A DNA stretch of 64,000 nt from Nonlabens tegetincola (GTDB taxonomy: Bacteria; Bacteroidota; Bacteroidia; Flavobacteriales; Flavobacteriaceae): the NCBI RefSeq assembly GCF_002954355.1, contig NZ_MQVV01000014.1:248001-312000 (forward strand), read 5' to 3'. The translations under genes and the position numbers were made by a program. Every line of letters starts with the position of its first letter. Position 1 is the stretch's first letter. Positions 6,586-29,254 of the stretch are shown here, in pieces. Below the pieces are notes generated by a model that did not search any database, had not been told where the DNA came from, and saw nothing but the letters and a program-made list of their open reading frames with translations.

Positions 6586-8067
6586 ATGAATGAAGAAAAA
6601 TTAACCTTATCACAACTAGAACAATACTTATCTAAAGCTGCGTGGATTTTAAAAGGTCCTGTAGATGCCTCAGATTATAAAGTTTATATTTTTCCTTTGT
6701 TGTTTTTTAAACGTTTGTCTGATGTTTATGATGAGGAATACCATCAAGCCCTAGAGGAATCTGATGGAGATAAGGAATATGCATCTTTACCAGAATTTCA
6801 CCGATTTGAAATTCCAGATAATTGTCATTGGAAAGATGTGAGAGAAACAACAAGTAATGTAGGTCTAGCCATTGAAAAAGCGCTACGTGGTATTGAACAG
6901 GCTAATCAAGAATCGCTGTATGGAATTTTTGGTGATGCACAATGGAGTAATAAGAACAAGCTTTCAGATCGATTGCTTATTGATTTGATTGAACATTTTT
7001 CTCAATATAATTTATCCAACTCATTAGTCGATCCCGATATTCTAGGAAATGCCTATGAGTATTTGATCAAACACTTTGCAGATTTAACTAATAAAAAAGC
7101 AGGAGAGTTTTATACACCACGTTCCGTAGTTCATTTATTAGGTTTGATTTTAGATCCTCATGAAGGAGAGACCATCTATGACCCAGCTTGTGGTACTGGC
7201 GGAATGTTATTAGAATGTGTTGATCATTTGAAGGATAATAATGAAGATTACCGTACGCTTAAATTATACGGTCAAGAGAAAAACTTAACTTCTAGTTCCA
7301 TTGCAAGAATGAACATGTTCTTGCATGGTATTGAAGATTTTCAAATTGCAAGAGGAGATACTTTACGACAACCTGCATTTTTTGCAGCAGATGGTTTAAA
7401 AACCTTTGACTGTGTGATTGCAAATCCACCGTTCTCTTTAAAACAATGGGGTGCAGAAAATTGGACCAATGATCCTTATGGTCGGAATATTGCTGGAGTG
7501 CCGCCTAAGGGCAACGGAGACATGGCTTGGGTGCAACATATGATTAAATCCATGAACAGTACGGGACGTATGGCAGTGGTTTTACCTCATGGAGCCTTGT
7601 TTAGAAAAGGTGCAGAAGGCAAAATTAGAAAAGCTCTTCTAGAACAAGATTTACTAGAAGCGGTTATTGGTCTTGGACCTAATATTTTCTATGGTACGCA
7701 GTTAGCAGCTTGTGTCATGATATTTAAACAAAACAAGCAAGCAGATAAAAAAGATAAGGTTTTATTTATTGACGCCTCAGACCAAGTAAGAGTAGGTAGA
7801 GCGCAAAACTTTTTAGAACCTGACCATGTCAATCAAATCTTTAAATGGTACACTGCTTATCAAGATGTTGAGAATTACGTAAAAGTAGCTGACATCAATG
7901 ATCTTGAAGAAAATGATTTCAATCTTAATATTCCGTTATACGTTGAGAAGATTATTGAAGATAATTTACCTAGTGTAGAAGAAGCACTTTCTGATTTAAA
8001 AGAGGCTTGGGAAGCGAGCCAAAAAGCTGAAGAAAAGTTTAAAAAAATATTGAAAGATTTTATATAG
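6586..8067 (+). CDS. hsdM: Type I restriction-modification methyltransferase subunit HsdM (copy 1)
   Basis: Adenine-N6 methyltransferase subunit; with HsdS it protects host DNA, and with HsdR it forms the restriction complex. Seen: N-terminal HsdM_N helical region to about residue 150, then the N6_Mtase domain with SAM motif I 'DPACGTGGM' (near residue 199) and catalytic motif IV 'NPPF' (near 280). Its 493 aa is normal. It is colinear and clearly homologous along its length with the second HsdM at 10599-12059. No HsdS directly follows it; the next gene abuts its stop and encodes a DUF262/HNH protein. Whether both HsdM copies share the single HsdS or this copy serves something else is open. 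Confidence 0.93.
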   Translation: MNEEKLTLSQLEQYLSKAAWILKGPVDASDYKVYIFPLLFFKRLSDVYDEEYHQALEESDGDKEYASLPEFHRFEIPDNCHWKDVRETTSNVGLAIEKALRGIEQANQESLYGIFGDAQWSNKNKLSDRLLIDLIEHFSQYNLSNSLVDPDILGNAYEYLIKHFADLTNKKAGEFYTPRSVVHLLGLILDPHEGETIYDPACGTGGMLLECVDHLKDNNEDYRTLKLYGQEKNLTSSSIARMNMFLHGIEDFQIARGDTLRQPAFFAADGLKTFDCVIANPPFSLKQWGAENWTNDPYGRNIAGVPPKGNGDMAWVQHMIKSMNSTGRMAVVLPHGALFRKGAEGKIRKALLEQDLLEAVIGLGPNIFYGTQLAACVMIFKQNKQADKKDKVLFIDASDQVRVGRAQNFLEPDHVNQIFKWYTAYQDVENYVKVADINDLEENDFNLNIPLYVEKIIEDNLPSVEEALSDLKEAWEASQKAEEKFKKILKDFI

Positions 8068-9834
8068 ATGGCCTACGAAACTCCGATAACCATAAAAAAG
8101 GCAATTGATAATATAAAGCGTAAGAAGTATTTGCTACCGTCGATCCAAAGAGAATTTGTTTGGGATACATGGCAAATAGAACGTCTTTTTGATTCATTAA
8201 TGCGTGATTATCCAATTAGTACATTTCTATTTTGGAAATTATCAAAAGAGAAAACTACAGATTTTCAATTCTATGAGTTTTTAAGAAATTATCATGAGAA
8301 AAATAATCGGCATAATACAAAGGCAGATCTTTTAGGTGATGAAGATATCATTGCTTTATTAGATGGTCAACAAAGAATGACCTCATTGTATATCGCGCTC
8401 GCTGGAAGTATTGCTGAAAAAGCACTTTACTACAGATGGGATAGTCCACATGCATTCCCTGAGAAGAAAATGTATCTTGATTTATTAGCTGAATCTGAAG
8501 ATGCAGATTTGAAATACGATTTTCGTTTTTTAACCGATAAAGAATTAAAAGAAGACCAAAACAAAGAAGACGTGTTCTGGTTTGAGGCGAGTAAAATTAT
8601 GTCTATGGTGGATAGTCCATCTGTTATGCAATATGCTATTCAACATGATTTGATGAATACAGCTAAATACACAAAAGAGCAGTCAAGTTTTGCCTTGGAC
8701 ACTTTGTCCAAATTTCAAAATGTTATTCATCAAAAAGGTACTATAAGTTTTTATTTAGAAGAAAGTGAAGAGTTAGATAAAGTGCTACAAATCTTTATTA
8801 GAATAAACAGTGGTGGAACCAAGCTTAGTTATTCTGATTTACTACTCTCTATAGCTACTGCCCAATGGGAAGAAAAAGATGCAAGAGAAGTAATTCATCA
8901 ATTTGTGGATGAGATTAATTCGATAGGAGATGGTTTTAAGTTCAACAAGGATTTCGTTCTAAAAAGCTGTTTAGTATTGGCAGATATAAAAGATATAAAA
9001 TTCAAAGTAGATAATTTCACAAAAGCCAATATGGCTATTATTGAAAACAAATGGAATGGTATTTCAGAGTCTATAAAAAGAGCTGTAGAACTTGTTAGTA
9101 AACTAGGTTATAGTAGAGATAATTTGCCAGCAACTAACACTGTTATTCCGATTGCTTATTTTATATATAAGAATGAGTTTGAAAATACAATTCTTCATTC
9201 TCAGTCGAGGCAACAGGATAGATTTCAAATAAAAGAATGGCTAGCTCGTGTTCTAATTAAGGGAACTTTTGGTGGTCAACCAGATTCAATTTATCCTGTA
9301 ATGAGAAAATTGATAAATGAGCATTTAGGCTCTTTCCCGTTAGAGGAAATTATCAATTATTATAAGGGTAGAAGAAAATCAATATCGTTTACAGAAGACG
9401 ATATTGAAAGTATTTTGGAATTAAATTATGGTAAGGCACAGACATTTTCAGCCTTGGTCCTCTTATATCCTTCTTTAAACTGGAATTTTAAATATCATCA
9501 AGACCACATTCATCCTAAATCTTTTTTCTCCACCCGAAAACTGAATAAACTTGGATTTACCGATACAGAAGAGATTCAGGAATTTCAATCACGTTTTAAT
9601 ACATTGCCGAATCTTCAGTTATTACAAGCTAATGAGAATACAGAGAAAAATAACAAACCATTTGAGTCATGGTTAAATGAGATTTATCCTAATGCCGAAG
9701 ATAAACGCACCTTTATTTTACAGCACCATATTCCTACAGATACTTCATTAAAACTTGAAGATTTTATGCGGTTTTTTGAAGCAAGAAGGACAGCGTTAAA
9801 AACTAAATTAATGCGTGAATTAAAAGTAAGCTAA
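8068..9834 (+). CDS. GmrSD-like protein: DUF262 + C-terminal HNH (DUF1524-like)
   Basis: Predicted nucleotide-dependent nuclease of the GmrSD/BrxU type, which in characterised members cut DNA carrying modified cytosines. Seen: N-terminal DUF262 opening 'YLLPSIQREFVWDTWQIERL', the ParB-like signature 'LLDGQQRMTSL' near residue 100, then a helical middle region, then 'DHIHPKSFF' near residue 478 followed by 'NTLPNLQLLQANEN', the HNH-type DUF1524 pattern. Length 588 aa fits single-chain GmrSD proteins. The start codon directly follows the hsdM1 stop, indicating translational coupling. A modification-dependent (type IV) nuclease inside a type I operon would catch phages that evade HsdR by modifying their DNA; that is inference. 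Confidence 0.85.
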   Translation: MAYETPITIKKAIDNIKRKKYLLPSIQREFVWDTWQIERLFDSLMRDYPISTFLFWKLSKEKTTDFQFYEFLRNYHEKNNRHNTKADLLGDEDIIALLDGQQRMTSLYIALAGSIAEKALYYRWDSPHAFPEKKMYLDLLAESEDADLKYDFRFLTDKELKEDQNKEDVFWFEASKIMSMVDSPSVMQYAIQHDLMNTAKYTKEQSSFALDTLSKFQNVIHQKGTISFYLEESEELDKVLQIFIRINSGGTKLSYSDLLLSIATAQWEEKDAREVIHQFVDEINSIGDGFKFNKDFVLKSCLVLADIKDIKFKVDNFTKANMAIIENKWNGISESIKRAVELVSKLGYSRDNLPATNTVIPIAYFIYKNEFENTILHSQSRQQDRFQIKEWLARVLIKGTFGGQPDSIYPVMRKLINEHLGSFPLEEIINYYKGRRKSISFTEDDIESILELNYGKAQTFSALVLLYPSLNWNFKYHQDHIHPKSFFSTRKLNKLGFTDTEEIQEFQSRFNTLPNLQLLQANENTEKNNKPFESWLNEIYPNAEDKRTFILQHHIPTDTSLKLEDFMRFFEARRTALKTKLMRELKVS

Positions 9835-10599
9835 ATGACCCAACAAGAGCTAGATACTTTGGCTTTGATTGATTTTAAATCAAGCGAAAGCAAAGCAGGA
9901 GGTTCGAAACAAGTTATTCTTGTTACTGAATCTAAAGCAGAAAAAGCTAAAGCATGGTATGAAACTAGTTTTTTAGTTTCCTTTGTATATCCTATGTTGA
10001 CCGCGATTGCTATTATTTTAGCTTCCCGATTTTTTGATCGTAGAAAAAATAAAAAGGCATTAAAAAAATCAGATAAAGAAATTGAAAAGCTAAAAGTAGA
10101 AACAGAAAACATAAAAAGATCGTTTCAGCCTATTGTAATCTCAACTTTACAAGCAACCCAAGATAAACTTCTAGCCAAAAAAATTGAAGCTCTGGAAAAA
10201 CTAACATATTTTTTCAATCAAATCGTTAAATATAAACCATCATTCAATGAAGGTGAATTAGTAATTCCAACTAAAAATGAAATTTTTCTATCAATATTTC
10301 TTGATTTTCAACCTCAGTACAAAATTGACTATATGAATTTTCATAATTCGTCTTCGTTTCTGTTTTCTGATATAGTTTTAAAGCAGTTGGATGTATTAAG
10401 TGATCAAATTTCTCGATTAACAGAAAAAAAGGTCGGTCATATTTTTAAAAATGAAATGATATCTTCTCTAGATAACAATACAATCAATCTAATAGATGAT
10501 ATAATAAGATCATTTAAAAATTGTCAGTCACTAATGCGCAAGGATTGTTTTTTAGATACAGAATTTATTCACCAATTCATTGAAGAAAACAAAAGATAA
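9835..10599 (+). CDS. Membrane-anchored coiled-coil protein of unknown function
   Basis: I do not recognise a family. The 254-aa protein has a short polar N-terminus, one transmembrane helix at about residues 45-62 ('VYPMLTAIAIILASRFF'), a highly charged coiled-coil-like segment at about 65-95, and a helical cytosolic C-terminal part. The first 20 nt of its coding sequence are nearly identical to the first 20 nt of the next gene, hsdM2 (both start MTQQEL), which looks like an insertion footprint. It directly follows the DUF262 gene and overlaps hsdM2 by one base (TAATG). A single-TM protein inside a defence operon could be an effector or a membrane tether, but nothing in the sequence proves either. 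Confidence 0.7.
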   Translation: MTQQELDTLALIDFKSSESKAGGSKQVILVTESKAEKAKAWYETSFLVSFVYPMLTAIAIILASRFFDRRKNKKALKKSDKEIEKLKVETENIKRSFQPIVISTLQATQDKLLAKKIEALEKLTYFFNQIVKYKPSFNEGELVIPTKNEIFLSIFLDFQPQYKIDYMNFHNSSSFLFSDIVLKQLDVLSDQISRLTEKKVGHIFKNEMISSLDNNTINLIDDIIRSFKNCQSLMRKDCFLDTEFIHQFIEENKR

Positions 10600-12059
10600 T
10601 GACCCAACAAGAACTAGAAAAATACCTTTGGGGAGCAGCAACCTCATTACGAGGGACTATAGATGCTGGTGATTATAAACAATACATCTTTCCCTTACTG
10701 TTTTATAAGCGCATTTGTGATGTTTATGATGAGGAGTTTGAAAAGGCACTAGAAGAAAGCGATGGTGATTTAGAATACGCAGCATTTGCAGAGCATCATC
10801 ATTTTATAGTACCCGAAACGGCACACTGGAACAGTGTACGAGAAACCACGGTAAACGTAGGTATCGCTATACAAAATGCCATGCGCGATATAGAAAAAGC
10901 GAATCCAGAAACGCTTTATGGAATTTTTGGTGACGCCTCATGGACAAATAAGAATCGGTTAAGTGATGCCACCTTGACCAACCTAATAGAACATTTCTCG
11001 CAGCACAAACTCAATTTAAAAAATGTACCTGACGACCAATTGGGTAATGCTTATGAGTATTTAATAAAAGAATTTGCAGACGATTCTGGCCATACCGCAG
11101 CAGAGTTTTACACCAATAGAACGGTGGTTAAACTCATGACTATGATTATGGATCCACAACCAGGAGAAAGTGTCTATGATCCTACTTGTGGTTCTGGAGG
11201 ATTGTTACTGAATTGTGCCTTGCATTTACGTGATGAAGACAAGGAATACCGTACTCTAAAATTATACGGTCAAGAAATCAACCTTATCACCAGCGCTATA
11301 GCCCGTATGAATATGTTTATGCACGGTATAGAAGAGTTTAGCATTGTACGTGGTGATACCTTAGCACGACCGGCCTTTTTGCATAACGATGAACTAAAAA
11401 CCTTTAATGTCATATTGGCTAATCCACCTTACAGCATCAAAGCTTGGGATCGCAAGAGTTTTGAAAATGATCCTTATGGACGTAACCTTTGGGGAACACC
11501 ACCACAAGGTTGTGCAGATTATGCCTTCCAGCAACACATACAGAAAAGTTTAGATGTTGAAAACGGACGTTCTATTTCCCTCTGGCCGCACGGTATTTTG
11601 TTTCGCGAAAGCGAAGCAGAAATGAGGAGTAAGATGATTGAAGAAGATTTGGTTGAATGTGTGATTGGTTTAGGCCCAAACTTATTTTATAATTCACCCA
11701 TGGAGGCCTGTTTGTTAATTACTAAAACGAATAAAACAAAAAATAAGCAGGGAAAGGTTTTAATTATAAATGCTTTAAAAGAGGTTAAACAAGAAAAGAA
11801 TATTGCTTTTCTAGACCAAAAGCATATTGACAAAATATATAATGCTTACAAAAATTTTGAAGACATAGATAACTTTGCACGAATAGTTTCTAATGATGAA
11901 CTGCTAGAAAACAAAGGAAGCTTAAATATTGCTCAGTATTTAAGTAATGTAGATACTAGTAATCCTGTACTATCAATAAATGAAGCACTCTCCAATTGGG
12001 AAGAACAATCCAAAACTTTAGATAAAAGTATGAATGAATTATTTGAAATCTTAAAGTAA
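10599..12059 (+). CDS. hsdM: Type I restriction-modification methyltransferase subunit HsdM (copy 2)
   Basis: Second adenine methyltransferase subunit, immediately followed by hsdS (TAATG overlap), hence probably the partner of that HsdS. Seen: HsdM_N opening 'LEKYLWGAATSLRGTIDAGD', SAM motif 'DPTCGSGG' near residue 197, and catalytic 'NPPY' near 275. 486 aa. The first 1.1 kb has codon use richer in G/C than the surrounding genes, while the last 0.36 kb from about 11700 is distinctly A/T-rich like the downstream cargo; this suggests a mosaic gene. A copy of the dispersed palindrome core (TTTCGCGAAA, 11601-11610) lies in its coding sequence and encodes part of 'LFRESEAE'. Confidence 0.93.
   Translation: MTQQELEKYLWGAATSLRGTIDAGDYKQYIFPLLFYKRICDVYDEEFEKALEESDGDLEYAAFAEHHHFIVPETAHWNSVRETTVNVGIAIQNAMRDIEKANPETLYGIFGDASWTNKNRLSDATLTNLIEHFSQHKLNLKNVPDDQLGNAYEYLIKEFADDSGHTAAEFYTNRTVVKLMTMIMDPQPGESVYDPTCGSGGLLLNCALHLRDEDKEYRTLKLYGQEINLITSAIARMNMFMHGIEEFSIVRGDTLARPAFLHNDELKTFNVILANPPYSIKAWDRKSFENDPYGRNLWGTPPQGCADYAFQQHIQKSLDVENGRSISLWPHGILFRESEAEMRSKMIEEDLVECVIGLGPNLFYNSPMEACLLITKTNKTKNKQGKVLIINALKEVKQEKNIAFLDQKHIDKIYNAYKNFEDIDNFARIVSNDELLENKGSLNIAQYLSNVDTSNPVLSINEALSNWEEQSKTLDKSMNELFEILK
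11601..11610. repeat. Palindrome core inside hsdM2
   Basis: TTTCGCGAAA followed by GCGAAGC: a copy intact on one side only, read in frame within hsdM2. Confidence 0.7.
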
Positions 12060-13240
12060 TGGAAACAATGACGCAGAATATAGATTTAAATTATCTAGAC
12101 AAGTCTACTTGGGAAACATTCAAGTTTGAAGAGATTGCTCATAAAGTATCTAAAACAGTAAAACCTGACGAAGCTCTAGTTGATATTTATATAGGTTTAG
12201 AGCATATAGATACAAACGATATTCACATAAGAAGAAAAGGAGTTCCTGCAGATGTTAAAGGTGGAAAATTAAGATGCTATCCTGGTGATATTATTTTTGG
12301 AAAACGACGTGCCTACCAACGTAAAGCAGCAATAGTAGATTTTCATGGTATTTGCTCTGCTCATGCATTTGTGTTTAGAGCAAATTCAGAAGTAATTGAT
12401 CCAAAATTATTTCCATTCTTTTTACATTCAGACCAATTTATGCATCGTATGGTGGATATTTCAGTAGGTGGATTATCGCCAACCATAAATTGGGGAGATT
12501 TAAAACAACAAGAATTCCTACTACCACCTAAAGACCACCAAGCCCAACTTGCTGAATTACTTTGGGCTATGGATGAGGTTGTTGAGAGGGAGAATGAGGT
12601 TTTAAAACATTTCAATATTTTAAAAAAATCAAAACAGAAAAAATTACTATTGCCTGAAATATCGGATAAATGGGAGTCAATTAAGCTCCATCAAGGTTTC
12701 GACAAAATCACTAAAAAAAATAAAGAAAATTTATCAGATAATGTTTTAACCATATCTGCTTCTCAAGGATTGATAAATCAGGAAGAATACTTTAAAAGAC
12801 AGGTAGCAAGTAAAAATCTTTCTAACTATTATGTCCTAGAAACAAACGATTTTGCCTACAACAAGAGTTATTCTAATGGTTATCCCGCTGGTGCAATAAA
12901 GGTTTTGAATAAGTATAAAATTGGACTTGTTTCACCACTTTATATTTGTTTTAGATCAAAATTAAATGAGCATTACAACAGTTATTATGAGTATTTATTT
13001 GATTATGGGTACTTAAATAAACAAATTTTAAGTATAGCAAAAGAGGGAGCAAGAAATCACGGATTACTTAACGTGGCTAGTAGTGATTTTTTTAATCTTA
13101 AAATCCCAAAACCAACTCAGGAATATCTTGACCGAATTGTACCAATTCTGAGAACATTAGATGCAATTCAAGGTAGTATTGAATCCAAAATTTCAAGTTC
13201 CAAAGCCTTACAAAAGAGTATAATTAATCAGGTGTTTTAG
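12059..13240 (+). CDS. hsdS: Type I restriction-modification specificity subunit HsdS
   Basis: DNA-sequence recognition subunit that bridges HsdM and HsdR. Two target-recognition domains are visible: TRD1 at about residues 15-155 ('WETFKFEEIA', 'GDIIFGKRRAYQRK', 'VGGLSPTINWGDLKQQEFLL') and TRD2 at about 195-355 ('KWESIKL', 'ETNDFAYNKSYSNGYPAG'), each followed by a helical spacer ('ELLWAMDEVVERENEVL' and the C-terminal 'ILRTLDAIQGSIESK'). Full length for the family (393 aa). A second ATG three codons in (MTQ) is an alternative start. It is the only hsdS in the locus although there are two hsdM genes. Its last codons, encoding 'IINQVF', reappear as a remnant after the next gene. Confidence 0.92.
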   Translation: METMTQNIDLNYLDKSTWETFKFEEIAHKVSKTVKPDEALVDIYIGLEHIDTNDIHIRRKGVPADVKGGKLRCYPGDIIFGKRRAYQRKAAIVDFHGICSAHAFVFRANSEVIDPKLFPFFLHSDQFMHRMVDISVGGLSPTINWGDLKQQEFLLPPKDHQAQLAELLWAMDEVVERENEVLKHFNILKKSKQKKLLLPEISDKWESIKLHQGFDKITKKNKENLSDNVLTISASQGLINQEEYFKRQVASKNLSNYYVLETNDFAYNKSYSNGYPAGAIKVLNKYKIGLVSPLYICFRSKLNEHYNSYYEYLFDYGYLNKQILSIAKEGARNHGLLNVASSDFFNLKIPKPTQEYLDRIVPILRTLDAIQGSIESKISSSKALQKSIINQVF

Positions 13241-13241
13241 T

Positions 13242-14180
13242 ATGCAGTGGTACGAGCCAGATACACGTTGGGATTTATATGCAAAATCTAGAGAAGAGTT
13301 TGTAGATAGGTTTGTTGTTGAAGGTAAGTTTCATAAAAATGTACCAGAAGATATTGTCACAGATTTTCAAACAGTAAGTTACTTAATGGCGCATAGCTAT
13401 TATCATTGGCCAATGTTTGATGAAGCTATGAGTAAACTACTGCTCATCATGGAAATGGCCATTAAATTAAAAGCTAAAGCACTTGGAATTCCAACCAAAA
13501 ATGGCAAAAGAGATAAACGGTTGGTAAACATTATAGATGATGTTTTTGAGAATGATTTTTTAAAGTTTTTAAAACCAGATTTTGATAGAGCCAGAAATTT
13601 TAGAAATATAAAAATGCATCCAGATAACCTTATGTTTATGGGAGCAATGGGCTTTACAGATGCAAACGCAAGACTATTTGCAAACACTATTAATTTATTG
13701 TTTTTAGAGAGTAATGAGTTAAATAAATTACACTCAACCATACATGAATTAGAATCAATATTAAAGCCATTTAAAACTGGTATTTATGTGTTGCAGTTTC
13801 AAGATAAAAAGATTTTGATTGATGGGTTTTATACTTTTAAATATCGTGAGTTTGAGAATAACAAATTACTGTTATTGTATATAAACCCATTGACTACAAA
13901 TGTTCACGAAAAGTTTGTAGAAAAAAAATATCCAGAACCATTAATAATAGCATTTAAAGATTTTAGCATAAAGGAAGATAGTATTGAAGATGAAGATTTA
14001 GATGGCAACCCAATCAGGATTTATATTAATGATAAAGAACAGAATTTAAAAGCCTATTTTAATTATCATAAAGCATTGAGTAAGATTCCAGAAAAAGATA
14101 TGCAGATGTTTTTTCAATTGAATAGTTCTAATGCATTATGGCAAATGGAAAAGATTTTTTATGAGAATTGTTGGAGTTAA
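13242..14180 (+). CDS. Uncharacterised protein with HEPN-like R-x4-H motif
   Basis: The 312-aa protein is not a family I can name. The N-terminal 175 residues are all-helical in character and contain 'RNFRNIKMHPDN' at about residues 118-129. Within it, R121-N-x3-H126 fits the R-x4-H catalytic motif of HEPN ribonucleases, and it is preceded by a helix with 'MLLIMEMAIKLKAKALG', as in HEPN proteins associated with abortive infection. The C-terminal half is mixed and ends with aromatic residues. It starts 1 nt after hsdS. A vestige of the hsdS 3' end follows its stop, so it looks inserted. An RNase toxin triggered when restriction fails is a plausible role, but the HEPN call rests on one motif and helical context. 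Confidence 0.6.
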   Translation: MQWYEPDTRWDLYAKSREEFVDRFVVEGKFHKNVPEDIVTDFQTVSYLMAHSYYHWPMFDEAMSKLLLIMEMAIKLKAKALGIPTKNGKRDKRLVNIIDDVFENDFLKFLKPDFDRARNFRNIKMHPDNLMFMGAMGFTDANARLFANTINLLFLESNELNKLHSTIHELESILKPFKTGIYVLQFQDKKILIDGFYTFKYREFENNKLLLLYINPLTTNVHEKFVEKKYPEPLIIAFKDFSIKEDSIEDEDLDGNPIRIYINDKEQNLKAYFNYHKALSKIPEKDMQMFFQLNSSNALWQMEKIFYENCWS

Positions 14181-16639: not shown

Positions 16640-16640
16640 T

Positions 16641-17267
16641 TTGGAGAAATTAGACGAAAAATTCGAAGTCATACACTACTATGATAATATTTATCTAGTA
16701 ATCGAGCATAAGAAAACCATTGAATACGATCTAAATTTCAAAGGAGCACATGAGCTGGCAAAAAAAGAAATGAATAAATGGATTACGTGTATTAAGTCTA
16801 AAAGTTTATATCACTACAGAAAGAAAGACGATACATTATTATATGCAGGAAGAGTTCGAATTGGATCTGTGGGTGGAAGGACTTGGAAAAAACTATTTGT
16901 CGACGGTATCAAAATTATAATTCTAGATGGTAGATCTGAACCAGATAGAATGGATTATCAATGGATTTGCAATTATTTAAATGCAATTGAAACTTATGGT
17001 GTAGATGCTTTTATGGATAATTATAAAAAATCTTTACAAGAATATAGTCAGCGAATAACCATGAATATAGAAGCAAATCAATCTTTACTTGAAAAAATTA
17101 GTAATAAATCTATGAAGGAAAAAATTCAATTTGAAATTATCCGGAATAGATCTATATTAAATAAAATCTTAAATATCATTCTTTTAATTAATGTACATAT
17201 GAATTTAGCAATTGAAAATGATATTGCTAAAATTACTTATGATAAAATAAGCAACTTATTTGCTTAA
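16641..17267 (+). CDS. Uncharacterised 208-aa defence-operon protein
   Basis: I do not recognise this protein. It most likely starts with TTG 1 nt after the TGA of the preceding gene, since no ATG occurs until about residue 44 and the open frame begins with well-formed coding sequence ('FEVIHYYDNIYLVIEHKK'). The first half is a mixed alpha/beta region with 'YAGRVRIGSVGGRTW'; the second half is helical with several basic stretches. No membrane segment or catalytic motif is evident. Tight spacing to the GHKL-nuclease gene suggests the two act together. The 86-nt gap after it is A/T-rich and might hold an internal promoter, but no clear box is seen. Confidence 0.6.
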   Translation: MEKLDEKFEVIHYYDNIYLVIEHKKTIEYDLNFKGAHELAKKEMNKWITCIKSKSLYHYRKKDDTLLYAGRVRIGSVGGRTWKKLFVDGIKIIILDGRSEPDRMDYQWICNYLNAIETYGVDAFMDNYKKSLQEYSQRITMNIEANQSLLEKISNKSMKEKIQFEIIRNRSILNKILNIILLINVHMNLAIENDIAKITYDKISNLFA

Positions 17268-18199: not shown

Positions 18200-18240
18200 T
18201 GGTTATCAGTTTGTTACTCTAAAATACGGAAATAAACTAA

Positions 18241-18630: not shown

Positions 18631-18719
18631 TTGATTCATTAGATGTAAACCAAATAGTACTCGTTGCTAAAACACGACACCGCGTCACAATAATAGAGGA
18701 TGTTTTCTATGGATTTGGC

Positions 18720-21700: not shown

Positions 21701-22373
21701 AGAAGCTGATTTACATTTTGATAGTATTAAGCCCATCCTGGACATACCCTTAGATAATGAAAGGATTAAAGATATAATTAAACAAATCTTTTTAAAAGGT
21801 TATGATTGGCGTGAAAGTCAAAAGCCCTACCTAGAATTAATATTAAAACGCGAGCAGGACCAATTAATCACATTACCTACAGGAGAAGGTAAGTCAGTTT
21901 TATTTCAAGGCCCAGCATTGTATAGAGGAGCGTTTACAAATAGACTAACAGTTGTTATTACACCACTAAAGGCTTTAATGGAAGATCAAGTCGACGCATT
22001 ATGGAATAAAGGTTTTTATGGAAGTGTAGATTATATAAACTCAGATCGAAGTTCTGAGGTTTACTCTATTTATCGAGCCATTGCTGGTGGAGAATTATCA
22101 CTGTTGTTTGTAACTCCAGAGCGTTTTAGGAGTAGGTCTTTCAATAGTGCACTTCAAATGCGGATACAATCTGATGGAGGACTAGAATATGCAGTTTTTG
22201 ATGAAGCTCATTGTGTTTCTCAGTGGGGCCATGAATTTAGACCTGATTATTTCAATTGTGCAAAATACATCACTCAACTTAAATCAATTAATGGATGCGA
22301 CTTCCCATTATTGCTGTTCTCAGCAACAGTTTCTGAAAAGATTTATGACGATTTTAATACCATTTTTTCATGA
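18720..22373 (+). CDS. DEDDh exonuclease fused to the first RecA lobe of a RecQ-like helicase
   Basis: A 1217-aa protein. After an unrecognised N-terminal 320 residues there is a DnaQ-like 3'-5' exonuclease: 'CFDLES' near 330 (D, E), 'GHNIVEWDIPIL' near 385 (D) and 'HTALSDAKLT' near 428 (H, D). A long unassigned region follows. The last 190 residues are the first RecA-like lobe of a RecQ helicase: Walker A 'LPTGEGKS' (about 1052), 'DEAHCVSQWGHEFRPDY' (from 1161) and 'LLFSATV' (about 1201). It then stops, exactly where the second lobe should begin; that lobe opens the next gene, overlapping by ATGA. ATG 18720 is the first ATG, but protein-like codons continue upstream to 18624. Confidence 0.85.
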   Translation: MKEIGAFRISGGKRDSYTISNDLKFRSGFTDDFYTSVKITFNHGSLWCLPHATVIAEDDGILRLKEQVARILKKRELSTVDRELYRKFSQSDLTAEFEDREWEQFQKELVNVIKSDTEHHFEPFVKKWLLLSPEWVNISTFRHLEKLNLYFHSWLDSKLPVAFFEEHIIEACMQYELPLHNNQNITELTFADLLNVDHKNIISSAICEQMQGELTLESLEIYRIYKLLIKTTIVDQQQVFFQKINNSIKPDFRFELWLNNEIEEFPKEYAIIGFSDFNVEVQTRILKKLNVEEIQPLIKSIKEVKGKEIQKKVSLSLINHVSSLFNYVCFDLESNGEQIGEIGWVGNSSNQEYFNNQNNIEEGIKLFSDCITNSDILLVGHNIVEWDIPILNKNNASVFNDQVWDTFQIEMFLSPEFKTFALKTEHTALSDAKLTRNLFLNQLCRILFSDERLCFNLFSFLPDRIIEKINVVKNSLSINWSPLELLNEDKKTYFRSQPNSNQLLAEVIDEITDTSAKKVLIIGDDNFKNEVIKINSIAFHAEESISNEFYRLDDEKVSEISDDLKFEKLALLNVIAWNKRHNRETYFGQIPTSLRITVENKLENFFEYFKPLKTIDWFSDDLIYLTVNELISHKKELEKLKSIHLITVKRDLISIENKQLLKEIDLDFMMRELDTEDYFWLKFSGGQSFSSISAEQCKRLEVEVPQIFDNIWVEKISLSNYRVWGNYNWESLLEDLNINSTKNVTAKLNTDSFDTVVAQVNSIETLNNKVIRYNPESLYRSRYWVFQKQLVEQIILDKKSSILFVQRRDEIKNLENYFQNLKYYIPNRNISLGRRLELLHHSSSQFKLIIAHISEFDTVVRANYLGDINFIIDSFRLAENNYSAFNSTYYKKLLNKKPIQLNENVTRKDINVSNNDITTDGNRPTIRDSFFLLELLKPTIDSLRYSLKNIASDHRLWLLDPRLNDHPEIFKKWKLGKKVFRVWDNLEKYQESVKEADLHFDSIKPILDIPLDNERIKDIIKQIFLKGYDWRESQKPYLELILKREQDQLITLPTGEGKSVLFQGPALYRGAFTNRLTVVITPLKALMEDQVDALWNKGFYGSVDYINSDRSSEVYSIYRAIAGGELSLLFVTPERFRSRSFNSALQMRIQSDGGLEYAVFDEAHCVSQWGHEFRPDYFNCAKYITQLKSINGCDFPLLLFSATVSEKIYDDFNTIFS

Positions 22374-25300
22374 TTAATTGGAAAGATAGTAAGGTTCCAT
22401 ATAACCCAATTAGGGATCATATAAAACTAGGATTTAAGATTCTAGACGATCCGAAAGATGCTGTTGAAGCCATAGCTCAAGACCTAGTAGACAAGAATTT
22501 TGACAAGAGTAAGAGTCGTGTTCTAATTTTTGTAAGAACAAGAAATCAAGCAGAGGAACTTTCTAATAGCTTAAATATGATAGCTATAGATCGAAAGTTG
22601 GATGTTGTAGATGCCATCGATTTTTATCATGCTGGTTTGGATGGTATAACCAGAACAGAAAAGTATGAAAGTTTTAAAAAAGGAGATTTAACCATACTGA
22701 TAGCTACCAAAGCGTTTGGTATGGGAATGGACATTGAAAACATCCATTTTATTTATCATTTTGGACCATCATCTACTTTTGAAGACTATTTGCAAGAAGT
22801 AGGTCGCGCAGGGCGAAATCAAAAGTCTCTGGAAAAAGCAGGGTTTTCTAGTGAAAACCCTATCCATGCAAAATGTTTGATGACTCAGGATGATTTTAAT
22901 AAAATCAAGGATATACAACATAAAAATCAAATAACTTGGTCTAAAATTGAACAAGTTCGCTCATCAATTTTTGATTACGTTGGTAAGTTTAGAAAGATCG
23001 CTATAGAGAAAGAGAACGCATTTTCTTTGCCTTTGGATTTATTAGATCAAATAAAAGATTATGATGAAGTACAAAACAAAAACACTTTGTTTAGAATTAT
23101 ACTCTATTGGTTAGAAAAATTACAAAGAATAAAGTTAGGTGTTTACTCGCCATCTCAATTACCTATAAAAATTATTAACCAGGAAGATGAGTTACTAAAT
23201 TTTAAAAGTAAAAAAGAAAAAGGTCAGTTTGAACATCTACGAACCTTTCTGAAAAAAGAACAAAAGGAAAAGTTTGACGGCTCAGAAAGTATTATGGTTG
23301 GAATGCAGCGTTTAAAGGACTCCCTTGAAATAACGAAAAATAAAGAGCTATTTAAGGTTTTGTTTAGGGCTCAAAAAATGGGACTGATTATTCTTGAACG
23401 ATATATAAATTTAGAGATTACAAAAAACAGAACGGCAGAATTGAAAAAGTGGAGGCAAACGGTAAGATCTCCTAGAATAGAATCAACTTTTGCATTTGCT
23501 GAAAGAATCTTGTCTTCAACGATTTTAGGAACTCAAGTATCTTTAAATAATGAAGAGTTAGAAAAAGATGCTTTAAATGTTTCAATTGAAAATTTAGGAT
23601 TAGATAGCATTTTTTGGAAAGAAGAAAGTAAAAAAGGAACCTCTATTTCTGCAGAAAAAATATCTGAAGATCTTAAAAAGGATTTTAAAGAGGTAAGATC
23701 AAAATTTGCTTTTAAAATTTTAAATTATTTATCTAAAATAAAGCATAAGAGCCATATAGAGTATGAAGGTGAGAGATCCTTTGTTTCACAACTTATTTAT
23801 AATGGTAATTCTTCCAAAGTAACTTCAAAAAAAGAGTTGGATGTTTTCAAACGAGATCTTCAAAAACTTATAAGTTTCGTATCAAATTCGTTTCTTAAAT
23901 CAGATCAGCAAAAATTTAATATTGTTGATTTGATAAATAAATTAAATATTGAAGAAAAAGGTGAAGAATATTTACAACAATTAATATTTATTTCTAAAGG
24001 GCTTGGCTATCTCAAGGGAATGCAAAGTTCATTAATTCCGATGGGAATTGAATTGTTCATTTATGATACGTCCACACTAGATTTAAATAAAGAACTAGAT
24101 TTAGAATGTCACATTGAGTTTGAAGAAAGTAATAAAATGAAATCCTTAAGATTGCTTTCGCTTAAGTGTCTTTCAGATATTGACAGAGACGTTCATGATT
24201 CATTTATTAAAAGTTATTTTCAATGTGCAAGTATAAAAGATTTAATGACCCTGTTAAGTGAGTATTTAGATGTAAATCACCCTGATCTTAGAGCCTACAG
24301 AGAAGAAGCTTTGAAAGAGAAGGTGGATGATCTTAATGACGGTCAAAGAAAAGTTTATAAGTATGATATAAATAAAAACCTTCAAGTTGTTGCTGGACCA
24401 GGTACAGGAAAAACACACACGCTTACTTTACGAATTGCTAAATTAATTCAAGAAGACAAAATTGATCCAGAAAGGATATTGGTTTTAGCTTATAATCGGG
24501 CTGTAGTAATTGAATTAAAAGATCGACTACGTAGGTTGTTTAAAGATTTGGGTTATGCTAAGTTAATTTCTAGATTAAGGGTGTTTACTTTTCATGGTTT
24601 AGTCAAATACGCACTAGGATCTGAACTCAAAGATTTAGAATTTAAACATTGGGTCACTAAATTTTTGGATGTAGCTCGATCTTCACCTGGTACTATTCGT
24701 CAAAATATTGGTAAACCTAGATTTGTTTTTGTTGATGAATTTCAGGACATTACAAATGAAAGATTAGATCTACTAAAATTTGTCGCAAATCCAGATGAAG
24801 TTAAAATTTGTGTTATAGGTGATCCTAATCAAAGTATTTATGGTTACGAGCGAGTCAATGTAGGAGGACCTATGAGCCCGCAGTCTTATTATGAGACTTT
24901 TACAAAAATTTATAGTCCAGAAGAATTAGAATTGAATATTAATTACAGGTCATATATTGAGATTATAAAGGAATCAGAAAAACTACTAAGCTTTAATAAG
25001 TTTCGCTTCCGAGTTCCAGAATTATTGGCTCATAAACAAACGTTATCAGATTGCACACCTACAGAAATTATTGATTTCAAAGTAGAACCAGTGGATTGGA
25101 AATTAAAGTTACAAGAGCTTTTAAGATATAAAGATGATAAAGGCAACTATCGCCAAATTGCGATTATGTTTCGTTCGAATAATGAGGTGTATCGGGCATT
25201 TAATAAGCTCAAAGCGTTAGATTTAAATGTGAGATTAAGAATTCAGGGAGCAAATGGAGCTTTGATAAAAACTCGCGAATTTTATCACTTATTAGAAATC

Positions 25301-26254
25301 TTTAGGTCTAAGGCAGATCATATTTTACCTTCTAATTATTTGCAAGAGATATCAGACTTAAAATTAAGAATCTTAAAAAAATACTCCAACTGGGATATTT
25401 ACTTATTAGATGTATTTGATTGTTTAGTTCGGGAATTTGAAAAAGAAAAAGAGGTGAACTCAACTTATGAAGATTTATTGCAATTTGTCGAAGATATTGG
25501 TCGTAAAGATGATGGACAGTTTGGTAAAATTTATGAAAAGAACATATCAAAGATAGGAGGTGATAACTCCTTACAAGAAGTAGTTATTACCACAATGCAT
25601 AAAGTGAAAGGTTTAGAGTTTGATGCAGTATTAATACCTCCATCTTTTTCAAACTTACCTACTTCAAATAACTTTGATACGTCTCTTTTAAATGACTACA
25701 TAGAAGAGGAACGAAGATTGTATTATGTGGCTTATTCTAGAGCTAAAAAGAGATTAGTAGTAATTAAACATGATAGAGAGGAATCTTTAGAAAATGGAGT
25801 AACATATGAAGTACAACAAGAAGTTAGAGATAGACTTGGGGTGAGCATTGAAGAAGGAATTGATAAGTTTAAGCTGTATTGGAATGCAGAGGTTCATGGA
25901 GCTAACTCTTTCAACTTTATAAAAAACAATGTAAAGATTGGGGATTCATTATTGATTGAACCTAATCAGGTAGGTATTTATACATATTGGCATGCAATTG
26001 TTAACGGAAATAAGGTTGCTCAGTTGTCCTCATCTTTGGTAAAGAAGATTGGTCACAACATTCCTTTAAAGGGATTTTCCGTATCCTCTGTTTATGTCCA
26101 TACGTACGAAGAGACATTAAAGTCTGACCAAGAATGGATAGATAAAGGGAGACCTAATGAATGGGGTAGACCTTTTGCTGAAAAATGGATTGATTCGTCT
26201 AGAGAACGAGGCTTTGTTTATGTTATAGATTTTTCAGGCTACGGAAGATCTTGA
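22370..26254 (+). CDS. RecQ second lobe fused to a UvrD/Rep-type SF1 helicase
   Basis: A 1294-aa protein. Residues 1-190 are the missing second RecA lobe of RecQ: 'VLIFVRTRNQAEEL' (about 52), 'FYHAGLD', 'ATKAFGMGMDIENIHF' (about 113-128) and 'QEVGRAGR' with the arginine finger (about 143-150). After an unassigned 450-residue stretch comes a complete SF1 helicase: 'AGPGTGKTHTL' (about 674), 'TFHG', 'VDEFQD' (about 788), 'GDPNQSIYGY', 'NINYRS', 'TTMHKVKGLEFD' (about 1075) and 'YYVAYSRAKKRL' (about 1120). It overlaps the previous ORF by 4 nt, so the two chains are probably made at a coupled ratio and assemble one RecQ motor, or are joined by frameshifting at a T6 run. Confidence 0.87.
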   Translation: MINWKDSKVPYNPIRDHIKLGFKILDDPKDAVEAIAQDLVDKNFDKSKSRVLIFVRTRNQAEELSNSLNMIAIDRKLDVVDAIDFYHAGLDGITRTEKYESFKKGDLTILIATKAFGMGMDIENIHFIYHFGPSSTFEDYLQEVGRAGRNQKSLEKAGFSSENPIHAKCLMTQDDFNKIKDIQHKNQITWSKIEQVRSSIFDYVGKFRKIAIEKENAFSLPLDLLDQIKDYDEVQNKNTLFRIILYWLEKLQRIKLGVYSPSQLPIKIINQEDELLNFKSKKEKGQFEHLRTFLKKEQKEKFDGSESIMVGMQRLKDSLEITKNKELFKVLFRAQKMGLIILERYINLEITKNRTAELKKWRQTVRSPRIESTFAFAERILSSTILGTQVSLNNEELEKDALNVSIENLGLDSIFWKEESKKGTSISAEKISEDLKKDFKEVRSKFAFKILNYLSKIKHKSHIEYEGERSFVSQLIYNGNSSKVTSKKELDVFKRDLQKLISFVSNSFLKSDQQKFNIVDLINKLNIEEKGEEYLQQLIFISKGLGYLKGMQSSLIPMGIELFIYDTSTLDLNKELDLECHIEFEESNKMKSLRLLSLKCLSDIDRDVHDSFIKSYFQCASIKDLMTLLSEYLDVNHPDLRAYREEALKEKVDDLNDGQRKVYKYDINKNLQVVAGPGTGKTHTLTLRIAKLIQEDKIDPERILVLAYNRAVVIELKDRLRRLFKDLGYAKLISRLRVFTFHGLVKYALGSELKDLEFKHWVTKFLDVARSSPGTIRQNIGKPRFVFVDEFQDITNERLDLLKFVANPDEVKICVIGDPNQSIYGYERVNVGGPMSPQSYYETFTKIYSPEELELNINYRSYIEIIKESEKLLSFNKFRFRVPELLAHKQTLSDCTPTEIIDFKVEPVDWKLKLQELLRYKDDKGNYRQIAIMFRSNNEVYRAFNKLKALDLNVRLRIQGANGALIKTREFYHLLEIFRSKADHILPSNYLQEISDLKLRILKKYSNWDIYLLDVFDCLVREFEKEKEVNSTYEDLLQFVEDIGRKDDGQFGKIYEKNISKIGGDNSLQEVVITTMHKVKGLEFDAVLIPPSFSNLPTSNNFDTSLLNDYIEEERRLYYVAYSRAKKRLVVIKHDREESLENGVTYEVQQEVRDRLGVSIEEGIDKFKLYWNAEVHGANSFNFIKNNVKIGDSLLIEPNQVGIYTYWHAIVNGNKVAQLSSSLVKKIGHNIPLKGFSVSSVYVHTYEETLKSDQEWIDKGRPNEWGRPFAEKWIDSSRERGFVYVIDFSGYGRS

Positions 26255-26287
26255 ATTTAATCATAAATTAGCACTCAAGCAAAACAT

Positions 26288-29254
26288 ATGGGATTCAACG
26301 AACTAAACAGTGTAGAAAACTACATCATAAGACAACTAACAGGCGTTAATTTAAACACCGGTACTGTTTCTGAAGATTCAGAGGTGTTCAATGGCTATTG
26401 GCGATACCAATCTCCACAAGAATTGAATCGTTCGGTGAATGAAGTCTTGTTAGAATCTGAATTTAAAAATGCGTTGATTCGTTTAAATCCTGAGATAACT
26501 CAAAATCCAGATCTGGCTGATGAAGTTATCTATAAACTTCGAGCCATTTTAATATCTGTACATCAAGTAGGATTAGTGCGCGCAAATGAAGAGTTTTTTA
26601 AGTGGTTGCAAGGTGATAAAACCATGCCTTTTGGAGAGAATAACAGACATGTTCCTGTTCGATTAATAGATTATGAAGATTTAAAGAATAATAGCTTTAT
26701 AGTTACTACTCAGTTTCGCGTACATCATAGGGAAACAAAAATTCCAGATGTAGTTTTATTTATTAATGGTATTCCAGTCGTAATTGGTGAAGCAAAAACA
26801 CCTATAAGGCCTTCAGTAAGTTGGCTAGATGGTGCTCATGAAGTCCATGATGTGTATGAAAACGCAGTATCACAATTATTTGTTCCAAATATTCTATCCT
26901 TTGCTACAGAAGGGAAAGAGCTGTATTACGGAGCGATTAGAACCCCTTTAGAATTTTGGGCGCCATGGCGATTAGAGAATGATGAAGATGCTATAGCAAG
27001 GCGTTTAGGATTGGGTGAAGTAGGCAAGGAGCTGTCAGATCTATTACATCCTAAAAGATTGTTAGATATTCTACAAAACTTCTCGTTGTTTACAACAAAC
27101 AAAAAGAAACAACGGATTAAGGTTATACCGCGATTCCAACAATATGAAGGTGCCAATAAAATTGTAGAACGTGTAAAAGAAGGAAGGATTAAAAAAGGAT
27201 TGATCTGGCATTTTCAAGGATCAGGTAAATCCTTATTAATGGTTTTTGCTGCTCAAAAATTAAGAAGAGAAAAAGATCTCAAAAGCCCCACAGTTATTGT
27301 GCTAGTAGATAGAACCGATTTAGACACTCAAATAACAGGAACCTTCAACGCAGCTGATATTTCTAATGTAGAAACCACAGATAATATCAAACAGCTGCAA
27401 AAACTACTAGAAAACGATACCAGAAAGATCATTATATCTATGATTCATAAGTTCAGGGATGCAAAACCTAATATGAACGGTAGAGATAATATCATTGTCT
27501 TAGTGGACGAAGCCCATAGAACACAAGAAGGTGATTTAGGACGTCAAATGCGTGCTGCTTTACCTAACGCATTTCTATTCGGATTAACAGGAACACCAGT
27601 TAACAAGGCATATAAGAATACATTCTGGGCGTTTGGATCTGAAGAAGATGAAGGTGGTTATATGTCTCGTTATACTTTCCATGACTCGATTAGAGATAAT
27701 GCTACGCTACCACTACATTTTGAACCACGTTTAGTAGATGTTCACGTAGATAAAGAAACGATAGATAAAGCTTTTGCAGAGTTTAAAGAAAGCGCTGCAC
27801 TTACAGATGAAGAAGCTGATGCACTGAATAAGAAATCAGCAAAAATGTCAGCATTCCTCAAGTCTCCAGAGCGAGTTGCTAAAATAGTTAAGGATATTGC
27901 TACTCACTTTAAAGATAAAGTCGCGCCTCATGGGTTTAAAGCGATGATTGTTACACCAGATCGTTATGCATGTGTGCAGTACAAAGAGGAATTAGATAAA
28001 TACTTCCCAGAAGAAGCTAGTAAGGTGGTTATTTCAACATCAGCAAATGATGAGTTGGAGTTTAAACAGAGATGGGAAGTTGATAAAAGTCAGCAAGAAA
28101 AAATAGTAGAAGAGTTTAATGATGCACTATCTGATATTCAGTTTATAATCGTTACTGCAAAACTTCTAACTGGATTTGATGCACCTATTTTACAAACCAT
28201 GTATTTAGATAAGTCTATCAAGGATCATACATTGCTCCAGGCTATTTGTAGAACTAATAGACTCTATCCTCATAAATCATTTGGTCGTATTGTGGATTAC
28301 TTTGGTGTATTCGATGATGCTGCGAAAGCCTTACAGTTTGATGAAGAAAGTGTTAAAACGGTTATATCAAATTTATCCGAGCTACGTGATAAATTGCCCA
28401 AGGCTATGAAAGAGACCTTATCTCATTTTGAAGGCGTAGATAGAACTATACAAGGGTTTGAAGGTCTAGAAGCAGCTCAAAACGCTATTAATAATAATGA
28501 TAAGAAAGACGCTTTCGCGAAAGATTATAAGTACCTGTCCAAACTTTGGGAATCATTATCTCCAGACAGTATCCTGAATCTGTATCAGGAGGATTATAAG
28601 TGGTTATCACAAGTATTTGAGTCCGTAAGACCAGCTGCAGATAATATTGGAAAACTTCTTTGGTTTTCTTTAGGAGCAGAAACCACAAAATTGATGCATG
28701 AAAATACCCATGTAGGTGAAGTGCATCACTTAGAAGAATTTGTTTTAGATGCAGATGTAATTGAAAATATATTCAATAATCCAGATCCAAAGAATGCTAA
28801 GAAGTTAGAAAAGATACTAATTAAGCGGTTTAAAAAGCACGCAGGAGATCCAAAGTTTAAGTCTCTTAGTGAACGTTTAGAGGCTTTAAGGGACAAAGCT
28901 GAGTTAGGATTAATAACGTCTATAGAGTTTGTAAAAGAACTTTGCAAACTAGCAAAAGAAACTGTAGAAGCCGAAAAGGAAATACAAGAGTTTTTAGTCG
29001 AGAAAACTCCAAAAGCAGCACTTACAGAATTATTCATTGAGTTAAAAAACGATCAAACTCCAGCAGTTGTAGAACGTATTGTTGAAGATATCGATGCAAT
29101 TGTTCGCATAGTTCGCTTTCCAGGTTGGCAAAAAACCAGTTCAGGAGAGCGCGAGGTCCAAAAATCGCTACGTAAAGCGTTATTAAAATATAAGCTACAC
29201 AAAGATCAAACTTTGTTTGAACGTGCTTATGCTTATATCAAAGAATATTACTAA
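26288..29254 (+). CDS. hsdR: Type I restriction endonuclease subunit HsdR
   Basis: Translocase-nuclease subunit of the type I complex. Seen: N-terminal PD-(D/E)XK nuclease with 'IPDVVLF' and 'VIGEAKTP' (about residues 153-172), then the SF2 motor with Walker A 'FQGSGKS' (about 310), 'VDEAHRTQ' (about 406), 'GLTGTPV', and 'TAKLLTGFDAPILQTMYLDK' plus 'LLQAICRTNRLYP' in the second lobe. A long helical C-terminal region binds HsdM in the family. 988 aa is normal. It closes the run, 33 nt after the RecQ-UvrD gene and about 13 kb from hsdS, an unusual separation. One palindrome copy (28512-28523) lies in frame and encodes part of 'DAFAKDY'. Confidence 0.93.
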   Translation: MGFNELNSVENYIIRQLTGVNLNTGTVSEDSEVFNGYWRYQSPQELNRSVNEVLLESEFKNALIRLNPEITQNPDLADEVIYKLRAILISVHQVGLVRANEEFFKWLQGDKTMPFGENNRHVPVRLIDYEDLKNNSFIVTTQFRVHHRETKIPDVVLFINGIPVVIGEAKTPIRPSVSWLDGAHEVHDVYENAVSQLFVPNILSFATEGKELYYGAIRTPLEFWAPWRLENDEDAIARRLGLGEVGKELSDLLHPKRLLDILQNFSLFTTNKKKQRIKVIPRFQQYEGANKIVERVKEGRIKKGLIWHFQGSGKSLLMVFAAQKLRREKDLKSPTVIVLVDRTDLDTQITGTFNAADISNVETTDNIKQLQKLLENDTRKIIISMIHKFRDAKPNMNGRDNIIVLVDEAHRTQEGDLGRQMRAALPNAFLFGLTGTPVNKAYKNTFWAFGSEEDEGGYMSRYTFHDSIRDNATLPLHFEPRLVDVHVDKETIDKAFAEFKESAALTDEEADALNKKSAKMSAFLKSPERVAKIVKDIATHFKDKVAPHGFKAMIVTPDRYACVQYKEELDKYFPEEASKVVISTSANDELEFKQRWEVDKSQQEKIVEEFNDALSDIQFIIVTAKLLTGFDAPILQTMYLDKSIKDHTLLQAICRTNRLYPHKSFGRIVDYFGVFDDAAKALQFDEESVKTVISNLSELRDKLPKAMKETLSHFEGVDRTIQGFEGLEAAQNAINNNDKKDAFAKDYKYLSKLWESLSPDSILNLYQEDYKWLSQVFESVRPAADNIGKLLWFSLGAETTKLMHENTHVGEVHHLEEFVLDADVIENIFNNPDPKNAKKLEKILIKRFKKHAGDPKFKSLSERLEALRDKAELGLITSIEFVKELCKLAKETVEAEKEIQEFLVEKTPKAALTELFIELKNDQTPAVVERIVEDIDAIVRIVRFPGWQKTSSGEREVQKSLRKALLKYKLHKDQTLFERAYAYIKEYY
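28512..28523. repeat. Dispersed palindrome inside hsdR
   Basis: CTTTCGCGAAAG, a 12-nt perfect palindrome within the coding sequence. Confidence 0.75.

Follow-up and report, generated by a model that had tools for sequence, protein, structure and literature searches.

Organisation of the operon

The window considered here is a stretch of 64,000 nucleotides from the genome of a marine Nonlabens. Between positions 6586 and 29254 it carries 13 ORFs, all on the + strand, whose 12 junctions range from a 4-nt overlap to an 89-nt gap (Table 1). The ORFs lie where the original prediction had placed them, and its description of a single strand with short gaps or overlaps holds throughout. Its family assignments (two HsdM, HsdS, HsdR, GmrSD_N, GHKL-NOV_C, HARE-GIY, the RecQ lobes and UvrD) are upheld by profile matches, which also bear out the idea of defence-type genes on a type I restriction–modification (R-M) scaffold. 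The count of 13 is right for ORFs and not for independent genes: the ORF at 18241–18630 aligns with the N-terminus of RecQ1 in relatives, from which it is separated by a frame change, so that it belongs to the first helicase half and the ancestral number of genes is, by alignment, 12.

Table 1. Features of the operon and its surroundings, with positions in the window.
Feature	Location	Position	Strand	Matches and motifs
hsdM1, first of two HsdM paralogues	chassis	6586–8067	+	PF02384 E=4e-106, HsdM_N; motifs DPACGTG/NPPF
GmrSD/DUF262 protein, HEC-05, BrxU-like type IV	slot A	8068–9834	+	PF03235 E=5e-32; PADLOC HEC-05 E=1e-227
254-aa protein, hydrophobic stretch (by eye)	slot A	9835–10599	+	weak PADLOC PDC-M09A match, E=0.003
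hsdM2, second HsdM paralogue	chassis	10599–12059	+	PF02384 E=2e-84; motifs DPTCGSG/NPPY
hsdS	chassis	12059–13240	+	PF01420; PADLOC Specificity_I E=1e-85
HEPN-like protein, 312 aa	slot B	13242–14180	+	R121-N122-x3-H126 motif
Short Tiamat-like GHKL ATPase with C-terminal NOV_C (DUF3883), 809 aa	slot B	14210–16639	+	TmtA PDLC03967; NF047352
208-aa protein, TTG start	slot B	16641–17267	+	no family above cutoff
HARE-HTH + GIY-YIG nuclease	slot B	17354–18199	+	PF20815 (GIY_YIG_2) E=4e-39; HARE E=4e-4, below gathering score
Detached N-terminal domain of first helicase half	slot B	18241–18630	+	aligns with residues 1–152 of relatives' RecQ1
RecQ1: DEDDh exonuclease domain, middle region, RecA lobe 1 (DEAD)	slot B	18720–22373	+
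RecQ2-UvrD: RecA lobe 2 and complete UvrD helicase	slot B	22370–26254	+	Helicase_C, UvrD (Pfam)
hsdR	chassis	26288–29254	+	HSDR_N, SWI2_SNF2, T1R_D3-like
Perfect 16-bp palindrome CGCTTTCGCGAAAGCG		4008, 6554, 31035, 40448, 42572, 46454, 57052, 62902

The operon is a type I R-M chassis with two cargo slots, hsdM1–(slot A)–hsdM2–hsdS–(slot B)–hsdR, and the slots appear to carry exchangeable, mostly antiviral-looking genes. The distance from hsdS to hsdR is 13,047 bp, in agreement with the roughly 13 kb of the original prediction, versus 2 bp in the empty chassis of another genome (G522), where hsdM1 and hsdM2 overlap by 4 nt. Scans for promoters and terminators yielded no usable signal, with no excess of promoter hits over shuffles; it is thus the spacing of the genes that points to a single transcript.

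Flanks and a genus-specific palindrome

On the left, homology with two close Nonlabens genomes (G012 and G014) ends at 6572, 14 bp before hsdM1. Neither genome yielded a clean empty site or a relative of the DUF4198 gene (window 29290). In G014, a relative of the gene at 31178–31765 lies about 2.8 kb from the left-flank relative, on its other side, which shows that this neighbourhood has been rearranged. The GC content of the cargo is 0.27–0.34 and that of hsdS 0.32, compared with 0.35–0.37 for hsdM1, hsdM2 and hsdR.

The palindrome listed in Table 1 is genus-specific, highly iterated and evenly spaced. It occurs 464 times in the 3.03-Mb genome and 180–737 times in each of 23 Nonlabens genomes (own included); in 36 other genomes, 35 have no copy and one has four. 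On one contig, the copies listed have a coefficient of variation (CV) of 0.51 (84 positions) and no gap below 1.5 kb versus about 20 expected; on a G004 contig the CV is 0.67 (61 positions), with 2 such gaps versus 17 expected. The palindrome is absent from 6570 to 31034. The chance of such a free stretch under random placement is about 0.02, which is probably an overestimate because the copies are more even than random. The end of homology at 6572, the palindrome-free stretch and the GC difference are the features that bear on a possible foreign origin of the operon. No paper on this palindrome was among the matches listed in a search of open-licence PMC articles, which is a weak form of absence.

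The chassis genes

HsdM, HsdS and HsdR subunits are all present with the expected domains (Pfam), and both HsdM have methyltransferase motifs. In a tree that excludes shorter or partial copies, hsdM1 and hsdM2 fall into a clade each (9 and 10 rows), and the motifs are kept in 19/19 rows. The predicted methylase is heterodimeric, built from two different HsdM; no heterodimeric-HsdM type I enzyme was evident among the literature matches listed. In HsdS, the recognition parts are variable, and the centre and C-terminal end are conserved, with nucleotide blocks near 12512–12590 and 13181–13240 in several loci.

A search with hsdR at E<=1e-200 found the chassis gene in 11 of 397 genomes of the family and 6 of 346 of the order (the own genome and G052 are in both counts). 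In Flavobacteriaceae chassis loci, identity to the window is 85–93% for hsdM1, 75–92% for hsdM2 and 78–91% for hsdR, with hsdS more variable. The exceptions are G213, which has a single hsdM (hsdM2-like, 60%) and an hsdR of 69%, and G487, where only hsdR is seen; over the chassis loci other than the window, hsdR identity spans 69–91%.

Contents of the two slots

The loci mapped were ten others of the family hsdR set, G522 of the order set, and two (L017 and L064) that came from the helicase scan, a route that favours loci with the helicase. Contig edges truncate G676 and G487, and the DNA of G570 and G640 starts too near hsdR for a slot to be seen. Counting the window, 13 loci show the whole of slot B; 11 hold cargo, and G522 and G213 hold none.

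Slot B varies widely in content. In the window it holds the HEPN-like protein, the short Tiamat-like GHKL ATPase, the 208-aa protein, the HARE-GIY-YIG nuclease and the DEDDh-RecQ-UvrD machine. G252 has a full-length Tiamat, 192-aa and 120-aa ORFs and an HTH/AbiEii-like pair; G228 has Septu PtuA, a weakly HNH-like ORF, an HEPN-like protein and an AbiEii-like pair; G024 has relatives of the PtuA/HNH-like pair of G228, a 120-aa ORF and a TmtA-like protein. G421 and G411 share one pair, a weakly TIR-like protein (below cutoff) and an uncharacterised protein of 655–659 aa. HARE-GIY is found in G355 (with small ORFs, an AbiEii-like pair and the helicase pair), G052 (small ORFs and an AbiEii-like pair, the helicase being absent), G288 (helicase and small ORFs) and L064 (helicase and a HIRAN protein). 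In L017, the helicase and a 187-aa ORF are present and HARE-GIY is absent. The original prediction would count recurrence of the inner gene order in its favour. Part of that order does recur: HARE-GIY, RecQ lobe 1, RecQ lobe 2-UvrD and then hsdR follow one another between hsdS and hsdR in Pareuzebyella, Salegentibacter and Maribacter, where the other intervening ORFs vary, and a Flavobacteriales MAG has the helicase pair there without HARE-GIY.

Slot A contains GmrSD-like proteins or other ORFs, or is empty. GmrSD-like proteins occupy it in the window, G355 and L017, while BLAST clustering places more distant ones there in G252, G421 and G228, with a Pfam check on G421.

The edges of the cargo can be seen in comparison with G252, the nearest chassis by hsdR. 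Besides cross-matches between the hsdM genes, nucleotide homology in the operon comprises 6586–8070 (hsdM1), 10599–12603 (hsdM2 and the first half of hsdS), 13181–13240 (the end of hsdS) and 26287–29254 (hsdR from its first base), and the intervening DNA differs. Against this one relative, the homology stops at gene boundaries. In G252 itself, hsdM1 and hsdS are each in two ORFs and hsdM2 is short, and this copy of the chassis may be damaged. Compared across loci, the operon is a common carrier fitted with a mosaic of modules.

One further hsd locus with the helicase pair, that of Nonlabens antarcticus (L012, 3056–6702), has AAA/OLD-like and reverse-transcriptase-like ORFs upstream of hsdR, as read by eye.

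Cargo proteins of the window

The HEC-05 model covers the whole GmrSD protein, which has an N-terminal DUF262 and a C-terminal DUF1524 domain, the combination of BrxU-like type IV enzymes; GmrSD_C itself scores E=1e-4 and 22.4 bits, just short of the cutoff of 23. In L017 and G355, slot A holds copies that are 65–67% identical. Its neighbour had been called a transmembrane protein: a hydrophobic stretch can be read by eye, and the 254-aa protein matches no Pfam or NCBIfam family above cutoff and has no homologue at 1e-5 among the loci compared.

The HEPN-like protein is a candidate by its motif, R121-N122-x3-H126 (HEPN pattern R-x4-6-H in a helical domain), which is invariant in 3/3 homologues; Pfam gave no match. 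Homologues lie in slot B of G228 (43%) and G487 (35%). In the GHKL protein, residues 5–558 match TmtA (PDLC03967, E=8e-114), the sacsin ATPase model NF047352 also matches, and NOV_C is found at the C-terminus (E=2e-6). The TmtA match is not full-length, as it spans model positions 4–567 of 1063. At E<=1e-40, GHKL relatives occur in 5/395 genomes: the own genome, the chassis of G252, two next to relaxase-like or Tra-like ORFs (as read from the maps) and one alone, so that three of the four non-own matches lie outside hsd loci. The 208-aa protein has no homologue among the loci compared.

HARE-GIY at E<=1e-30 occurs in 4/395 genomes of the family (own included), in all four within slot B of the chassis. 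When the own genome is left out and the 10 chassis genomes of the near-identical 397-genome sample are used, the hypergeometric probability of the linkage is about 1.2e-5. HARE-GIY is likely to be a true accessory of the chassis. PDB sequence searches with this protein and with the GHKL protein gave no match at 0.01 or 0.1.

A RecQ motor divided between two genes

Besides a DEDDh exonuclease, the last module of slot B has two motors, RecQ and UvrD. The RecQ motor is complete in its helicase motifs, but its two lobes are on different polypeptides (18720–22373 and 22370–26254). DEDDh residues are invariant in 31/31 aligned sequences, and RecQ motif VI, the UvrD Walker A and DEFQD are present in 30/30. 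Lobe 2 matches residues 265–340 of E. coli RecQ (1oyw), and the UvrD part is recognised by Pfam and Foldseek (E=4e-22). A cold-shock (CSD) match is seen in RecQ1 of 2/31 aligned relatives. The best Foldseek match of RecQ1 is S. aureus DinG (E=3.5e-9, rmsd 16.7); the middle region has no Walker A common to the family, and the resemblance to DinG is a lead only. In VIA-align the rows are filled by lobe 1, with other parts barely covered. No PADLOC model fits the whole DEDDh-RecQ-UvrD family, and the one fused member scanned matched best to parts of the DpdF and GajB models.

In a tree of 77 relatives, 22 are split, 54 fused and one undetermined, and the split character needs 4 changes. The split rows include L076 (in-frame stop, gap of 15) and L065 (a distant MAG), neither of which is used as support. 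The tree omits L054, L059, L068, L082 and L084 (fewer than 1000 query residues covered), L010 (an H. cellulosilyticus plasmid, several ORFs) and L009 (the same locus as L019). A split clade of 18 members from Flavobacteriia and Hymenobacter has an SH-aLRT of 99 in a 31-row subset tree. All 20 split loci of Bacteroidota have an overlap of 1–26 nt between the stop of the first ORF and the nearest ATG of the second.

A programmed frameshift at the helicase junction was considered and rejected, because the second ORF is in the -1 frame in 12 of these loci and in the +1 frame in 8.

The persistence of the split across many relatives makes the arrangement probably important. With lobe 1 and lobe 2 on successive polypeptides, we infer that the halves form an obligate complex, in which the RecQ ATPase site would lie at a protein–protein interface. 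Distances of the two halves correlate with r=0.96 (17 split rows), which may be due to shared descent alone. In the window, a frame change near 18624–18627 parts the N-terminal domain from RecQ1 (compared with L016, homology resumes at 18624 in a different frame); possible consequences are an impaired copy or separate production of the domain. Given this and the divided or short chassis genes of G252, some chassis or helicase copies may be impaired.

Distribution and neighbours of the helicase

The helicase is patchily distributed; at E<=1e-60 it was found in 2 of 197 relatives, own included. It lies on two Hymenobacter plasmids and, in several Flavobacteriia, away from hsd genes within the DNA around each locus compared. 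All 8 matches on viral contigs are partial. Within the split rows of the 31-row tree, location in this chassis needs 4 changes. Pareuzebyella, whose pair is in the chassis, is sister to Zobellia, whose pair adjoins a different HsdM-like gene (27%), which makes repeated entry into or loss from the chassis probable for the pair. Outside the chassis, 127 immediate neighbours were tallied by family. The 25 families listed first, of 129, include the NERD+UvrD model C3a187 (9), GajB (up to 6), DrmD (2), DrmA (2), pAgo (2) and REase_I (2); these uncontrolled counts are per family and do not give the share of defence genes.

Several neighbourhoods have features of their own. In 12 loci, mostly of gut Bacteroidales (L041, L044, L046, L049, L050, L051, L052, L055, L056, L062, L075 and L087), a gene of about 590–700 aa (lengths listed up to 700) lies 3' of the fused helicase on the same strand, mostly after a gap of 7–14 nt (65 in L055, 177 in L051); the two are possibly a two-gene module of their own. 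In L018, a WYL-like gene (2657–3667) is directly upstream of the split helicase and resembles, by eye, the WYL-domain gene at window 2945–3970, which adjoins rtcB on the other strand about 2.6 kb upstream of the operon. Lost chassis genes may have left scars in L018, as a 25-residue hsdR match, and in L047, as a 75-aa hsdM2-like ORF; these short matches carry no weight here.

Proposed mode of action and alternatives

The explanation favoured here, with a probability of about 0.7, is a carrier operon whose two cargo slots exchange modules at gene boundaries, the cargo adding layers of defence that would include a RecQ machine assembled in trans. Modules, several of them known defence systems, would be exchanged between hsdM1 and hsdM2 and between hsdS and hsdR while staying in a shared operon; comparison of the loci provides the differing contents and the edges, and from these and the gene spacing the exchange and the single transcript are deduced. 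The two HsdM with HsdS would methylate and HsdR restrict, and the GmrSD enzyme would act against modified phage DNA. HEPN and Tiamat-like modules would add further layers, with the GIY-YIG nuclease as a likely true accessory of the chassis. The helicase–nuclease machine, with its DEDDh exonuclease, UvrD motor and RecQ lobes on successive polypeptides, would most probably load on DNA ends or forks produced by HsdR, by the nucleases or by phage replication, and then unwind and degrade the DNA.

The original prediction saw instead one layered system of 13 genes, or a subsystem at 14210–26254 within an hsd operon. An integrated system of 12 or 13 co-operating parts inherited together would account for the common strand, the short gaps, the recurrence of HARE-GIY, RecQ1 and RecQ2-UvrD ahead of hsdR in Pareuzebyella, Salegentibacter and Maribacter, and the presence of all four HARE-GIY matches in the chassis. 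It is nevertheless improbable: cargo differs between chassis loci and is missing from 2 of 13 (G522 and G213), HARE-GIY occurs without the helicase in G052 and the helicase without HARE-GIY in L017, and most non-own GHKL relatives (3/4) lie outside hsd loci. The proposed subsystem is not supported either, with the helicase also found outside hsd loci and GHKL relatives in other settings. For the set as a whole, no system name turned up, as the prediction had held.

Two other alternatives concern the helicase. Its split could be an artefact or decay, through a frameshift, a sequencing error or a programmed frameshift that yields a fused protein; a six-T run precedes the window junction, 54 of the 77 relatives are fused, and there is the second frame change near 18624 in the same gene. 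Such an origin is very hard to reconcile with 20 Bacteroidota loci from different assemblies in two frames (12 at -1, 8 at +1), each with a start codon that overlaps the stop, and with catalytic motifs kept in both halves. The pair could also serve DNA repair or the upkeep of mobile elements and accompany defence loci as a passenger, for instance as a repair enzyme carried on mobile DNA. The plasmid copies, the loci away from hsd genes and the small counts per defence model among neighbours agree with this, and exonuclease plus RecQ recalls WRN; against it stand the patchy distribution and the proximity of the pair to DrmA/DrmD and pAgo genes elsewhere, and it is considered unlikely, if a serious candidate. 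A more specific form of the carrier-operon explanation, put forward tentatively and at less than even odds, is that the DEDDh-RecQ/RecQ-UvrD pair is an undescribed defence machine: a RecQ motor assembled in trans, degrading DNA in the manner of RecBCD and coupled to a type I enzyme with two HsdM, in a carrier where Flavobacteriia would assemble antiviral combinations by slot exchange.

A chassis that is loaded differently in nearly every mapped genome, is empty in two and has gene-exact edges amounts to a natural experiment on which defences work together, and its slot contents offer a way of finding new ones; the reports consulted deal with one or two sets of genes lodged in a type I operon. 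The split RecQ poses a sharp biochemical question, because two RecA lobes that close on one ATP are made as separate proteins, a separation kept while the reading frame at the junction changed.

Comparison with known systems

UvrD, AddA and RecB have a UvrD motor like that of the helicase (Foldseek). In contrast to RecQ helicases, the RecQ motor of the window is split over two genes, with UvrD joined to lobe 2. WRN unites an exonuclease and RecQ in one repair enzyme, the RecQ part being matched in this analysis. Tiamat is approached by the N-terminal GHKL part of the 809-aa protein, which is shorter and has NOV_C where TmtA has its own C-terminus; slot B of G252 holds full-length TmtA. For DISARM, no drm match was among those listed for the 10 ORFs scanned with PADLOC (all except hsdM1, hsdM2 and hsdR; for hsdS and RecQ2-UvrD up to 25 matches each), and DrmD/DrmA adjoin only some relatives of the helicase. 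The search of open-licence PMC articles, a weak indicator of absence, listed no paper on the helicase family, a lobe-split RecQ or the chassis.

The Campylobacter rlo genes are likewise ORFs of other function that lie between hsd genes. That a system can be embedded between hsdS and hsdR, and that GmrSD genes occur within type I loci, is already in print, as far as the available parts of two papers go (PMC12255303, PMC11411939); in those parts there is no chassis with two slots and two HsdM in which known systems are interchangeable, no HARE-GIY link and no lobe-split RecQ. PMC11411939 names RloF and describes TgvAB, GmrSD-family genes in the type I R-M cluster on VPI-2 of Vibrio cholerae that protect against phages with modified DNA. 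As described there, TgvAB shares with the window the position of GmrSD-family genes inside a type I operon, but consists of two proteins, whereas in the window one HEC-05/BrxU-like protein stands between the hsdM genes, accompanied by further modules. In the RptR island, according to the available part of PMC12255303, DarTG2 is embedded between hsdS and hsdR, so that a second defence system occupies the same interval as here. That island has one hsdM, whereas the operon of the window has two HsdM paralogues and two slots, with many types of cargo on one chassis and gene-exact edges.
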